Assembly (NCBI RefSeq): GCF_900129225.1
Contig: NZ_FQUG01000006.1
Coordinates: 1 to 64,000 of the forward strand
Direction of reading: 5' to 3'
DNA: 64,000 bases
Source of the DNA: Schwartzia succinivorans DSM 10502
GTDB taxonomy: Bacteria; Bacillota; Negativicutes; Selenomonadales; Selenomonadaceae
Of the stretch, positions 1-63,360 are shown piece by piece; positions within the stretch are counted from its first letter, which is position 1, and each line of letters opens with the position of its first letter. Position numbers and translations under genes: made by a program. The notes beneath the pieces were generated by a model that was given only the letters and a program-made list of their open reading frames with translations, was not told where the DNA came from and ran no database searches.

Positions 1-169
1 ATTCTGCCTCAATAATTTTAACCTTTTTGCGTTCACACAAATCTCTCAAGATTTTTCCTACATCTTGTTTTAACTGGCGATAAATTGCCTGTCTACGATA
101 CTTTGGTGCAAAAACAATATGATATTTGCAACGCCATTTGCTATGTGATAAACTTTTCACGTCGTTCAT
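1..169 (-). CDS. tnpA: IS200/IS605 family transposase TnpA, N-terminal part (runs off the window)
   Basis: The reverse strand from the ATG at 169 encodes 56 residues up to the window edge, including CKYHIVFAPKYRRQAIY, the N-terminal beta strand typical of single-strand DNA Y1/HUH transposases of the IS200/IS605 family. A strong AGGAGG ribosome site lies just upstream (178-183). The catalytic HUH motif and tyrosine would lie outside the window, so activity cannot be judged. The element may also mobilise the short palindromic elements found elsewhere in this window, which is inference. Confidence 0.85.
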   Translation of the reverse strand, partial: MNDVKSLSHSKWRCKYHIVFAPKYRRQAIYRQLKQDVGKILRDLCERKKVKIIEAE

Positions 170-4700: not shown

Positions 4701-4926
4701 ATTCCCCTCCTGACAACAACAAGATTTCCATAACTAAATTCTATAATATATCGTTATACCATTCAATATTCGTATCTTATTGTTAATTGTAATTTAAATT
4801 GCCTGACATTGAATTAAGCCATATCCAATCTTCATATAATCAAGGCAGCGTTTTTTTAATTCGTAGAAATATGCTTAATATTTCATCGAATAAGGTGCTG
4901 GTCCGTCAGTGAAAATACCTCCGCGG

Positions 4927-4967
4927 AAACTTTGCCTATGGCAAACTTCAATTGAAGGCATTATAAT
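4927..4967 (+). promoter_or_regulatory. Palindromic promoter element (copy A) of the hotdog operon
   Basis: A hairpin centred on TTTGCC-TAT-GGCAAA is followed after about 12 nt by GGCATTATAAT, which contains a perfect TATAAT -10 box at 4962-4967. ATGGCA inside the palindrome sits 18 bp upstream as a weak -35 (4/6 match). The first downstream gene starts at 5004. The same hairpin plus GGCATTATAA unit recurs near 23.2 kb and 62.4-62.7 kb. The stretch 4701-4926 shows no gene. Confidence 0.6.
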
Positions 4968-22875: not shown

Positions 22876-23496
22876 AAACCGCTTCAATGTTTCCTTGGCA
22901 GAGATGAACAAAATACCTGTCCCGCCAGCTTTTTCCCACTCCTTGATATTTTTCTCATAATCATCTATCAGAATGCAGTCTCTCCCGGTAACATAATTTT
23001 TCTTTTCTTCCCTGTAAACGATATTGACCTTGATGTGCTCCCCAAGGTTTCTGCGTACCCATTCGATTTTATCATCAGCGGCTGTGTCAATACCCCTTCT
23101 CGGCTTAGGAATACCGCTCAAAATTTCACAGGCACCCGGGTATTTTTTATCAAGCAGCTGAAACATCTCCCTGGCACCATCGCAAAACTCCAGCTTATTA
23201 TAATGCCTTTAATCAAAGTTTGCCATAGGCAAACTTTCCTCTGCGGCATTTCAACGAGGCGGGAGATATGCTCACCGCCTGTTATTTGTCTTAACCCCCA
23301 CTTACAGAAGTGGGGGACATCTTGGGGCCGAGTTATAAAAATGCTCTACCGCCCTAATGGCCCCAAACAAACGGTCATCGTCGCCTTTATTTTTATTACT
23401 CTGATCAACAGGCTCCATTCCGCATAATTCCCTTACACCTCGATCAAAATCTGCCAATACTCCGTCCAAATCAAAATATATCTTTTGTATTTCCAT
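22870..23496 (-). pseudogene. HAD-superfamily 5' nucleotidase-like gene split by a 129-bp element
   Basis: The N-terminal part (from ATG 23496) carries the HAD nucleophile motif YFDLDGVLADFDRG and runs to AVEHFYN. The C-terminal part carries SGIPKPRRGIDTAADDK and DCILIDDYEKNIKEW, the later HAD motifs. Between them lies the 129-bp element 23204-23332 with in-frame stops. Removing the element plus one TTATAA copy gives HFYNKLEFCDGAREMF in frame, so the insertion is the only lesion seen. A start at 23166 could still yield a C-terminal fragment, but it would lack the nucleophile. Confidence 0.88.
23204..23332 (-). mobile_element. Short palindromic insertion element (copy B), non-autonomous, inside the HAD gene
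   Basis: On the minus strand the element starts CTCGGCCCC, has a hairpin CCCCCACTTCTGTAAGTGGG(GG) 16 nt from that end, a middle GGCGG/CCGCC hairpin, and near the other end a perfect 10-bp hairpin AAAGTTTGCC-TAT-GGCAAACTTT followed by GATTAAAGGCA. TTATAA flanks both sides (23198-23203, 23333-23338). It encodes nothing. Hairpins at both ends without terminal inverted repeats fit IS200/IS605-type non-autonomous elements. Confidence 0.75.
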
Positions 23497-25693: not shown

Positions 25694-25720
25694 TGCCCGT
25701 TGGCAAATATTTTTTAGCCA
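25662..25720. repeat. 59-bp direct repeat, copy 2
   Basis: Matches 22817-22875 with five A/G transitions. Similarity ends where the HAD coding sequence would begin. Confidence 0.75.
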
Positions 25721-25727
25721 TTTAGCG

Positions 25728-25798
25728 TATTTTTGACTGGCGAGTTGGCACATTTTTAACTAGCCAGTTGGCACTTTTTTGACTGGCGAGTTGGCAGA
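25728..25798. repeat. Three imperfect direct repeats, IS21-end-like
   Basis: Three units of about 23 bp: TTTTTGACTGGCGAGTTGGC, TTTTTAACTAGCCAGTTGGC and TTTTTTGACTGGCGAGTTGG, each ending in a TTGGCA-type box. Arrays of such boxes occur at the ends of IS21-family elements; no istA/istB gene is present here, so this may be a remnant. Confidence 0.5.
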
Positions 25799-25932
25799 TT
25801 CCGTTTTCAATATAATTAAAACCATCCGTTCAACGGGTGGTTTGCCGTGTTATCCATTCACCTTGATTGAGTATGATACAATATGTATGTATTTGGAGAA
25901 GTTTAGACAATACGTACAGCAAGGAGATATAT

Positions 25933-48719: not shown

Positions 48720-48804
48720 AATGCTCACCATCCTTTTTCAATAACTCTTATTACACAGATTGACAAACAAGCTATCAAAGAAACGACAGCTCATTTATTT
48801 TGAG

Positions 48805-48914
48805 TCGTCCACTAAAGCAGGACCTCTCTTATTCTGAATCGTCCACTAAAGCAGGACCTCTCTTATCATTTGTCGTCCACTGAAGCAGAACCTCTCTTAT
48901 TTTTAGTCATCCTT
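48805..48914. repeat. 34-bp direct repeats, three copies plus a partial
   Basis: TCGTCCACTAAAGCAGGACC TCTCTTAT starts at 48805 and 48839, and a variant (TCGTCCACTGAAGCAGAACC) at 48873; TCATCC begins a fourth at 48907. Each unit holds GTCC...GGAC, a short inverted repeat. Non-coding, just downstream of the ATPase gene 48929-50299. Confidence 0.85.
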
Positions 48915-61070: not shown

Positions 61071-61358
61071 TTACAGCAAAGCATTTTTCTTGCCAATCTC
61101 TGTAATCTGTTCGACAGTTAGTTTGGTCACGCGTGAAATCATATCCACTGATAATTTTTCTTTAAGCATATCAATTGCTGCTTCATTAATTACTTCTTCA
61201 CGGCCTTCAGCACGGCCTTCAGCACGGCCTTCAGCACGTCCTTCAGCACGGCCTTCTTCTCTTCCTTTGATTTTTCCTTTTTCTTCCATTTCCATCAATG
61301 TCTGCTCATAGACCATATACAACGCCCTCTTTCCGTCATCGTCACAGAGCAAAGGCAT
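61071..61358 (-). pseudogene. Spare C-terminal cassette of an Rpn-family nuclease
   Basis: A 95-residue frame starting CDDDGKRALYMVYEQTLMEM, nearly identical to a segment of the intact gene upstream (RDDDGKRALYMTYNQTLMEM), then GREEGRAEG repeats and a different tail, IDMLKEKLSVDMISRVTKLT. It lacks the nuclease domain and any ribosome site, so it looks like an alternative 3' end rather than an independent gene. Confidence 0.65.
61197..61262 (-). repeat. Short tandem repeats coding for GRAEG units (cassette copy)
   Basis: Repeats of GGCCTTCAGCAC (12 bp) encode repeated G-R-A-E. This low-complexity stretch, shared with 61494-61572, is a natural site for slippage or recombination. Confidence 0.8.
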
Positions 61359-61373
61359 ATAGACTAAATACTC

Positions 61374-62240
61374 TCAAAGCATAGTCATGTACTTGGGAAA
61401 TTCTTCCTTTGGAATGCCTGCGGCTTCCATTGCTGCCTCAGCGGAAATTTTCATATTCTTCATAATGTTTTTAATCAGTTCAATCTTACCCTCGGCACGT
61501 CCTTCTTCACGGCCTTCTTCACGTCCTTCAGCACGTCCTTCTTCACGTCCTTCAGCACGGCCTTCTTCTCTTCCTTTGATTTTTCCTTTTTCTTCCATTT
61601 CCATCAATGTCTGATTATATGTCATATACAACGCCCTCTTTCCATCATCGTCACGCTGCAATTCTACTTCTTCCTGCAAACTGCGGGTAAAGTCATCATT
61701 TGGTTCATTGTTATTGATGTAATCCATCAAATTTGCCAAGCTCCTGCTTACCTGATGCCTGTCACCCTGGGTATTCAAGAAAATCTTATACACATCATCA
61801 TCCAGTGATAATTCGTAATCCTCATGGCATCGGCTGCTGAAGGTATATCTCGTAAAATTCTTATCAAAAGGATCAAATGTGCATATGAAAATAATATACG
61901 TATTTCTCAGTCTGCTATACAACTCGCCCTTTTTCAAAGCATCATTATCCAGTACAGACTGATAATATCTTGTTCTCTTTCCCAGGGCTTCCTTAAACGA
62001 ATCACTTGCCTGCATCTCAACATCTATGACAGTCCCATCGGCAAGCGTAACATAAATATCCAGCCGTACACCTTTGCTGGTTAACTGCGCCTCAAGGCTT
62101 TTTTCACCTTCAGGATAATTAACCTCGCATATTTTCACATCAAGAACACGTTCCAATAGCTGCCTGCAAAGCTCCGGCTTTTCCATAACCAGCCGAAACA
62201 TGAAATTATTGCTGATCGTCGCATTTCTCAGGTCATCCAC
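61374..62240 (-). CDS. Rpn family recombination-promoting nuclease (PD-(D/E)XK)
   Basis: A 288-residue protein. The start LRNATISNNFMFRLVMEKPE and KGVRLDIYVTLADGTVIDVE-MQ contain the D-x(n)-E-x-Q form of the PD-(D/E)XK site of Rpn/transposase_31 proteins. A GREEG/GRAEG repeat stretch (about 225-252) follows, then the tail KNIMKNMKISAEAAMEAAGI. Rpn proteins are DNA nucleases linked to mobile DNA and defence. The GTG at 62240 has GAGAGG 8 nt upstream. A spare cassette with another tail follows. Confidence 0.87.
   Translation of the reverse strand: MDDLRNATISNNFMFRLVMEKPELCRQLLERVLDVKICEVNYPEGEKSLEAQLTSKGVRLDIYVTLADGTVIDVEMQASDSFKEALGKRTRYYQSVLDNDALKKGELYSRLRNTYIIFICTFDPFDKNFTRYTFSSRCHEDYELSLDDDVYKIFLNTQGDRHQVSRSLANLMDYINNNEPNDDFTRSLQEEVELQRDDDGKRALYMTYNQTLMEMEEKGKIKGREEGRAEGREEGRAEGREEGREEGRAEGKIELIKNIMKNMKISAEAAMEAAGIPKEEFPKYMTML
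61494..61572 (-). repeat. Short tandem repeats coding for GRAEG/GREEG units (intact gene)
   Basis: Alternating CACGTCCTTCTT and CACGGCCTTCAG units, 12 bp each, encode G-R-E/A-E. Copy number would alter the spacer length between nuclease domain and tail. Confidence 0.8.
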
Positions 62241-62410
62241 ACAGTCCACCCTCTCAATTATACCACACTATATATCGTTTTGTATATTTTAGAATATACG
62301 TTCCCTATATTATGCTCTTATTTTTCTGAATAGTCAACTTAATTGATAAAATTTTTACATTTTTCATTAAATGAGAAGGCTATTTTTACATTTTTCCAGA
62401 ACCTATAAAA

Positions 62411-62670
62411 AGCATTATGACTCGGCAAAATTTGAACAATGGCGTTATGGCTCGTTCCTCGCCGAAATGCCGCTAAGGAGAGTTTGCTTGTGGCAAACTC
62501 TGATTAAAGGCATTATGACTCGGCATAAATGCCTCGTCGAAATGCTGACATATGAAGTTTTGCCTTTGGCAAAACCTGAACCAATGCATTATGACTCGGC
62601 ATAAAATGCCTCGCCGAAATGCCGCTACGGAGAGTTTGCTTGTGGCAAACTCTGATTAAAGGCATTATAA
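62411..62670 (+). repeat. Tandem array of the palindromic element family (copies D)
   Basis: Head-to-tail units of about 70-77 bp, each starting CTCGG after TTATGA or TTATGG and ending in a GCAAAC-type hairpin plus GGCATTA. Unit junctions fall near 62415-62421, 62444-62450, 62512-62518 and 62589-62595; the last unit ends in TTATAA (62665-62670). Two full units carry GAGTTTGC-TTGTG-GCAAACTC, one carries GTTTTGCC...GGCAAAAC. The final TATAAT forms a promoter 37 bp before the next gene. Confidence 0.8.
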
Positions 62671-62706
62671 TACATACATGAATTATGTTATGTAAGGAGC
62701 TTTTTG

Positions 62707-63360
62707 ATGTCGGGTACTTTTCGTTATTTGCTGTTTATTTTTGCAGTTATAGTACAGTCTTCGGGTATTCCTCTTGTGGTCAGAAGTCTGCTTGGTATAT
62801 CCCCTACCTCAAGCCTTCCGTATGTTATCAGTGTCGCTTCGAATTTTTCTTTGGGGCAGATGACGTTTGCTTTTAATATGCTGCTGATTTTGGCACAGTT
62901 TATGCTGCTCCGCAGCAAATTTCACAAAATCCAGCTTCTGCAGGTTCCTATGACTATAGTATTTTCATTTTTCATTGACGTGTTCATGGATGTATGGTCA
63001 TGGGTTAATCCCGTGAATTATTTTTTCAAGCTGGCTGCTCTGCTTATAGGTACGGCACTTATTGCCTTCGGTATTGCTGTTCAGGGGATTGCCAATGTTC
63101 TCATGCTTCCGGGCGAGGGACTGGTTTATGCTGTGTCCAGATATTTTCGGATAGATCTGAGCAAGGTAAAGACGGGAAATGATGTGATTCTGGTTGTTTG
63201 TGCCGCTGTTCTTTCTGTCATATATCTTGGCATTATTGACGGCATCCGTGAGGGGACTCTTATTGCCGCGCTGCTTACAGGTGTTTTGGCAAAGTTTTTC
63301 CTGACTCATCTCGGGGCTGTTGATGAACACGGCCGCCTGATTTTCCGTCCTCATTGGTAA
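62707..63360 (+). CDS. YczE/YitT-like membrane protein (DUF6198 type)
   Basis: A 217-residue protein with five to six membrane segments. FRYLLFIFAVIVQSSGIPLV at the start and GIAVQGIANVLMLPGEGLVY near 130 resemble YczE/YyaS-type membrane proteins, whose function is poorly known. ATG 62707 has AAGGAG 8 nt upstream. It is read from the promoter provided by the last palindromic unit and ends at a terminator. Confidence 0.85.
   Translation: MSGTFRYLLFIFAVIVQSSGIPLVVRSLLGISPTSSLPYVISVASNFSLGQMTFAFNMLLILAQFMLLRSKFHKIQLLQVPMTIVFSFFIDVFMDVWSWVNPVNYFFKLAALLIGTALIAFGIAVQGIANVLMLPGEGLVYAVSRYFRIDLSKVKTGNDVILVVCAAVLSVIYLGIIDGIREGTLIAALLTGVLAKFFLTHLGAVDEHGRLIFRPHW

Follow-up and report, generated by a model that had tools for sequence, protein, structure and literature searches.

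A tandem array of two-hairpin units

The window analyzed here is the whole stretch of DNA formed by the first 64,000 nucleotides of contig NZ_FQUG01000006.1 of Schwartzia succinivorans DSM 10502. Near its right-hand end two adjoining Rpn-like genes lie on the minus strand (61071-62249, the longer one matching PDDEXK_2), and a gene for a DUF6198 membrane protein (PF19700) lies on the plus strand (62707-63360). Between them we found a tandem array, made up of a 30-nt remnant and three head-to-tail units of 68, 76 and 76 bp (62419-62668, plus strand). That the predicted array is real was clear from the sequence, from the repeat call (TRF score 264, period 76) and from folding, as the stretch had a z of -7.35 and none of 200 shuffles folded equally well.

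On its left side the array is joined to AGCATTAT (62411-62418, plus strand), which carries a target-like TTAT and may represent the end of an earlier copy. In unit 1 (62419-62448) the start of a first hairpin, HP1 (GACTCGGCA), is joined directly to the 3' half of a second, HP2 (AATTTGAACAATGGCGTTAT), and internal-deletion forms resembling it were also seen at two other loci (L218 and L227). Every full unit consists of both hairpins in the order HP1-GA-HP2-AT. Unit 2 (62449-62516, delimited by inverted repeat and covariance model) has HP1 at 62449-62463 (GGC...GCC) and HP2 at 62466-62514 (AATGCC...GGCATT). Unit 3 (62517-62592) has HP1 at 62517-62538 (GAC...GTC) and HP2, of the other subtype (AGTTTTGCC), at 62541-62590, and unit 4 (62593-62668) has HP1 at 62593-62615 (GAC...GCC) and HP2 at 62618-62666; both were delimited by the covariance model and their DNA folds gave z of -3.75 and -4.05. 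Over 60 nt, units 2 and 4 share 98% identity, and they flank the different subtype. The head-to-tail arrangement in the original prediction was correct, but its first unit is an internally deleted remnant and the full units measure 68, 76 and 76 bp.

Pairing is retained while stem sequences vary

Across the family the sequences of the stems vary and their pairing is retained. For HP2, two subtypes are common, AATGCC...AAAGTTTGCC and AACGC...AGTTTTGCC, and paired positions change together between them; 94.9% of the cells were paired and covariation was 0.260 as compared to 0.135 in shuffles, counts that lean on the two subtypes. Divergent HP2 stems pair as well, as seen in the dnaX unit of genome G001, where a near-perfect stem of unrelated sequence had a z of -9.63. 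For HP1 the outer triplets were fully complementary in 22 of 25 distinct junctions from several genomes and genera, and the maximum reached in 2000 shuffles was 15 of 25. The triplet pairs observed were AAC/GTT, GAC/GTC, CAC/GTG, ATC/GAT and GTC/GAC. An integron attC reading, based on the AAC...GTT boxes, was dropped since the triplet switches to any of the other four with compensation.

These pairings also define the joint between units. The base that follows TTAT is the outermost one in the stem of HP1 and is paired on the opposite side; in the window, TTATGG belongs to GGC...GCC and TTATGA to GAC...GTC or GAC...GCC. The joint is therefore TTAT, rather than TTATRA as first proposed, and the R is a stem base that is compensated across the stem.

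The element has no terminal inverted repeats, its ends having only the target-like TATAA in common, and near-terminal palindromes are present at both ends in the form of HP1 and HP2, as seen from covariation and DNA folds. With a length of 68-175 bp it is too short to hold a transposase gene. A long form, about 135-175 bp in length and with two further hairpins within HP1, makes up most of the dispersed copies in genome G032 and many of those in this genome, and the arrays are built from short forms.

Two observations on the palindromes were made in passing. At L034 (G000:C14:473-531) HP2 is a perfect inverted repeat (AATGCCTTCAATCAAAGTTTGCC TAT GGCAAACTTTGATTGAAGGCATT) where its relatives have an internal loop, which suggests that the palindrome may have been corrected by template switching. 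Also, a hairpin module of 24-26 nt, CGACGCG(A/C)AGCTAGT(G/C)CC..GG, is nested inside elements at two places, in both orientations and in several genera (L034:1320-1333, L036, L103, L111, L179, L077, L094 and others). It resembles an even smaller repeat for which the hairpins of the element would be the target, and recalls SMR-A in the Haloquadratum PATEs.

Family size and distribution

BLAST gave at least 45 matches to the array unit in the genome, and a covariance model derived from 26 copies gave 80 matches with E up to about 1e-3, which fall into 63 clusters of this 2.66-Mb genome, a number far beyond chance; copies away from the array had been anticipated. A pattern search with GGCATTANNNNTTATRA was uninformative, as the spacing in the pattern was wrong. 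Family members found by the covariance model elsewhere in the window are a long form of about 145 bp with extra CCCCCACTTCTGTAAGTGGGGG and GGCGG...CCGCC hairpins (23197-23342, minus strand) and an HP2-type copy that ends in TATAAT (4909-4967, plus strand). The latter site is empty in G001, where a TATAAT is about equally far from the gene start.

The genome-wide counts rest on searches across a genome set, in which the family was patchily distributed within Selenomonadaceae: 20 of 60 genomes (this one and relatives) carry it and many genomes of the same taxonomic family do not, the highest load being the 81 copies of G032. The sole full-length copy on plasmids was on pSRC1 of S. ruminantium TAM6421, and neither viral contigs (searched with the exact pattern) nor phage records gave a family match. 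No Rfam family matched the window at gathering score, the array having chance-level matches only, and a search of the open-access literature for a repeat of this kind in Selenomonas or Negativicutes returned nothing relevant. Within the open-access library and Rfam the family is apparently undescribed.

Insertion at TAT^AA and variation in unit number

In G032, 31 copies are near-identical. The left flank of these reads TATAA in 30 copies and GATAA in one (L175), and the right end reads TTATAA in all 31, followed by a free base (T12, C8, A6, G5). An exact empty site was present in the sister species G003, which reads GGGCATATAAATCCTCCC where the filled orthologue in G032 reads GGCATAT[AACGAG...TTAT]AATTCCTCCC. 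Insertion at this orthologous site was at TAT^AA; nothing else has changed, and there is no net duplication apart from the target. Other empty sites (C10:4909, C11:50428 and L169) fit but have diverged, so that the site exact to the letter is a single one.

As the first bases of the element are AAC (or GAC/CAC) and the last ones TTAT, joined ends would read TTATAAC, which is again a target, and since its own right end is a target half-site, copies can stack head to tail. Unit numbers indeed differ between this genome and G001, a genome of the same genus, at the orthologous loci ylqF (3 vs. 2), dnaX (2 vs. 3) and C15:173051 (1 vs. 2). At ylqF, one unit is exclusive to this genome and is located exactly between TTAT and AATAGAAT of the G001 version, i.e. 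at the right-end target. These data agree with two points of the original prediction, that the 3' end of the element recreates its insertion target and that copy number varies among relatives.

The number of units at 62419-62668 may instead have changed purely by unequal recombination or slippage, with no repeated insertion, an explanation that is compatible with a mobile family. The A-B-A order of the subtypes, together with the near identity of the two A units, would allow recombination rather than insertion as the source of this array, and L011 holds two identical neighboring units. However, the extra ylqF unit sits exactly on the right-end target, and neither recombination nor slippage explains the dispersal of the family. 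We find this explanation quite possible for the array, while leaning slightly against it. Recombination between units can in any case act as another route to copy-number change at the locus.

Candidate mobilizing enzymes

The original prediction compared the array with REP/PATE-like arrays and pointed to the IS200 TnpA of the window as mobilizer. The anatomy is PATE-like. The subterminal hairpins, the lack of inverted repeats and the fixed short left target would all fit an IS200/IS605 or REP/RAYT type of mechanism, with the units mobilized in single-stranded form by a TnpA of this genome bound to the GTTTGCC hairpin. This genome does have Y1 transposases, and at one IS605 copy (L052) the left-end hairpin, CCTCCACCTCTTAGGTGGGGG, is loosely similar. 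However, no similar left-end hairpin was found at 21 other TnpA loci examined, and that of the IS200 whose tnpA lies at the window edge (1-160, minus strand) is unrelated to the element. Further, neither GTAG nor CGTC tags occur at the hairpin foot, which reads G(T/C/A)(T/C)GAA / TTAT in 26 of 26 aligned units. The distribution of the enzyme also runs against it, as Y1_Tnp (PF01797) was absent from seven carriers with 12-81 copies (G032 with 81 copies, G007, G035, G021, G027, G033 and G019) and present in 7 of 7 non-carriers checked, several of the genomes being drafts; the same profile found matches in the E. coli and Caulobacter genomes used as control. Mobilization by IS200/IS605 or REP/RAYT is thereby largely refuted and we regard it as improbable.

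At least 12 contig ends of the G000 assembly fall inside Y1_Tnp genes, from which it follows that identical IS200 copies break the assembly. An IS605-type element adjoins a half hairpin copy (TTGTAACGCTATTGCTCAAATTTAGCCATAGGG) at L190 (G003:C10), which lies upstream of an IS605-type tnpA; the arrangement looks like an insertion of that element into the hairpin.

Other candidates gave little. The Rpn/PDDEXK_2 neighbor (PF12784) is present in most carriers and also in the non-carriers G005, G008, G030 and G036, and is therefore not discriminating. A profile for the IS91 Y2 transposase (PF04986) had no match anywhere, controls included, which makes that search uninformative. No transposase recurs beside the elements, and among the loci in this genome and G032 where only the left end is present, all being deletion derivatives or fragments, no autonomous copy was found.

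The TATAA on both flanks in 30 of the 31 young G032 copies would also be expected from a MITE of a DDE transposase that makes a 5-bp TATAA target-site duplication, and in this respect the flanks are formally ambiguous. A classical DDE MITE would, however, have terminal inverted repeats, and the element has none beyond TATAA. The left copy is not always equal to the right, since the right TATAA is invariant and the left departs from it not only at L175 but also in the G007 array (TATCAC) and in this genome (TGTAA and others). The covariation of HP1, moreover, places the left AA, GA or CA inside the element. The left-side departures and the covariation lead us to favor insertion without duplication, and we consider a DDE MITE very unlikely.

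The right end as a probable promoter

The -10 box has TATAA as its core. In this genome the right-end sequence is TATAAT in 47 and TATAAA in 11 of the 63 clusters (58 together), and a TTGACA-like hexamer is positioned exactly 18 nt upstream of the -10-like end (TTGGCA in 21 clusters). The hexamer matched the -35 box at four or more of six positions in 50 of the 63 clusters, as compared to 23% of shuffles. The elements are also oriented towards genes. A gene start with a ribosome site lay no more than 100 nt from the right end in 30 of the 63 clusters but from the left end in only 11, the corresponding numbers for G032 being 13 and 3, and an independent ORF-based count showed the right-hand gene to be codirectional in 50 of 63. 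Genes downstream include the housekeeping genes uvrB, dnaX, parA and deoC, named by reading. The sixth base of the right-end sequence is T in 49 of the 63 clusters here vs. 12 of 31 copies in G032 (Fisher p = 4e-4). In the younger G032 set the base after TATAA is thus freer. The reading in agreement with these data is that elements insert at TATAA and that copies acting as promoters are then retained.

At the array, the DUF6198 gene most probably has its promoter provided by unit 4, in the form GTGGCA-N18-TATAAT (62642-62671, plus strand). The -35-like hexamer lies in HP2 (62642-62647) and is a modest match; the -10-like TATAAT (62666-62671) spans the junction, with TAT from the element and AAT from the flank, and together the two boxes match at 10 of 12 positions. 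They are followed by a Shine-Dalgarno sequence, AAGGAG (62694-62699), and by the ATG, 35 nt past TATAAT. In a scan with the neighboring gene, Selenomonas were the nearest named relatives of this genome. In named Selenomonas relatives no array lies upstream of the DUF6198 orthologue, and several have a TTGACT/TATACT-type promoter there instead.

The association with gene starts, the -10/-35 spacing and the housekeeping genes downstream would also fit a host-made promoter module (a structured upstream element), now immobile, that was multiplied by recombination and maintained for its regulatory role, but the near-identical G032 copies, many of them away from gene starts, the exact empty site, the patchy distribution and the differing unit numbers make this highly improbable.

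A model for the array and its relation to known repeats

Taken together, our results make it probable that the array is composed of copies of a mobile element, PATE-like and non-autonomous, that inserts at TAT^AA, and whose surviving copies serve as promoters. The element would be a pair of hairpins, HP1-GA-HP2-AT, able to fold as single strand and recognized by structure more than by sequence. It would enter TAT^AA and leave no net duplication other than the target. The bases at its start (usually AAC) and at its end (TTAT) would act as target half-sites, so that the right end may again be a target on which further copies stack; recombination between units would also alter their number. The right end would rebuild TATAA(T), with the -35-like hexamer of TTGGCA type 18 nt upstream in HP2. 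Since the target is itself the -10 core, insertions near genes would keep or create a promoter, and old copies would be retained in the orientation in which they serve as one. We infer this promoter activity from the sequence. The mobilizing enzyme would act in trans and is probably not an IS200/IS605 Y1 transposase. The elements are presumably still mobile and would move by a single-stranded route.

A more far-reaching version is tentative and, on balance, rather unlikely. Here, sequence-free hairpins recognized by structure would home to -10 boxes at TAT^AA and regenerate them, moved by a non-Y1 enzyme, which might be a hairpin recombinase of a novel type or an unrecognized HUH-type nuclease, and would spread ready-made promoters through Selenomonadaceae.

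Among known systems, the PATEs of Haloquadratum have no terminal inverted repeats, near-terminal palindromes, a 5'-side target of 4-5 bp and no target duplication, and show strain-specific insertions despite nearly all IS200-type genes being broken (PMC3119063). The element resembles them in its lack of inverted repeats, its near-terminal palindromes, its transposase-less size and probably its short 5' target, and likewise in having core-deleted copies and other small repeats inserted in its palindromes (PMC3119063). It differs in that its target overlaps -10 boxes, that it forms head-to-tail arrays, that its stems are free to vary and that it is bacterial (Selenomonadaceae). In addition, the palindromes of PATEs relate to those of IS605-type transposons, and for the element a loosely similar hairpin was seen at one IS605 copy and at none of 21 other TnpA loci, hence PATE-like and not PATE. 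Correia/NEMIS repeats of Neisseria are likewise short and mobile, lie beside gene starts and carry sigma-70-like promoters (PMC10969869), the promoter of our element being deduced from sequence statistics; Correia repeats are however bounded by 26-bp inverted repeats, whereas the element lacks such repeats and restores a -10 box at its end. BOX of Streptococcus is also modular and structured, with a varying number of tandem modules and nested insertions of other repeats, but in its A-B(n)-C composite the middle module alone is repeated, and here it is the whole two-hairpin unit (PMC3049150). REP/BIME with RAYT are similar as short high-copy palindromic repeats with hairpins in series, and differ in the foot tag and in that most high-copy carriers of the element have no Y1 transposase (PMC3733652). 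The element belongs to a known kind and stands out in two respects: it homes to TATAA, where it rebuilds the -10 box, and most of its high-copy carriers lack a Y1 transposase.

Selenomonas is an abundant genus of the rumen. Targeting TATAA, with the -10 box rebuilt and the -35 box in place, would allow a low-harm spread through promoters, by which the element could rewire or standardize the expression of many genes, housekeeping ones included. That heavily loaded carriers lack Y1 raises the question of what moves PATE-like elements, a puzzle also noted for the Haloquadratum PATEs (PMC3119063).

Other repeats were seen alongside the family. In the g3 genomes a second dispersed repeat, ATGTCCGCCCCCATAGGGGGCGGGAGACCGCC, has dozens of matches (L180 flank, G003 C5:75358, C10:47167 and others). 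Within the window, a tandem 34-bp unit (TTATTATGAGTCGTCCACTAAAGCAGGACCTCTC) is repeated 3.5 times beside an AAA_14 gene (48795-48912), and a 23/46-bp unit forms a tandem array at 25699-25800. The two Rpn-like genes contain 12-bp coding repeats (61199-61256 and 61496-61576) that give rise to REEGRAEG runs, and the length of the repeat differs between the two copies.
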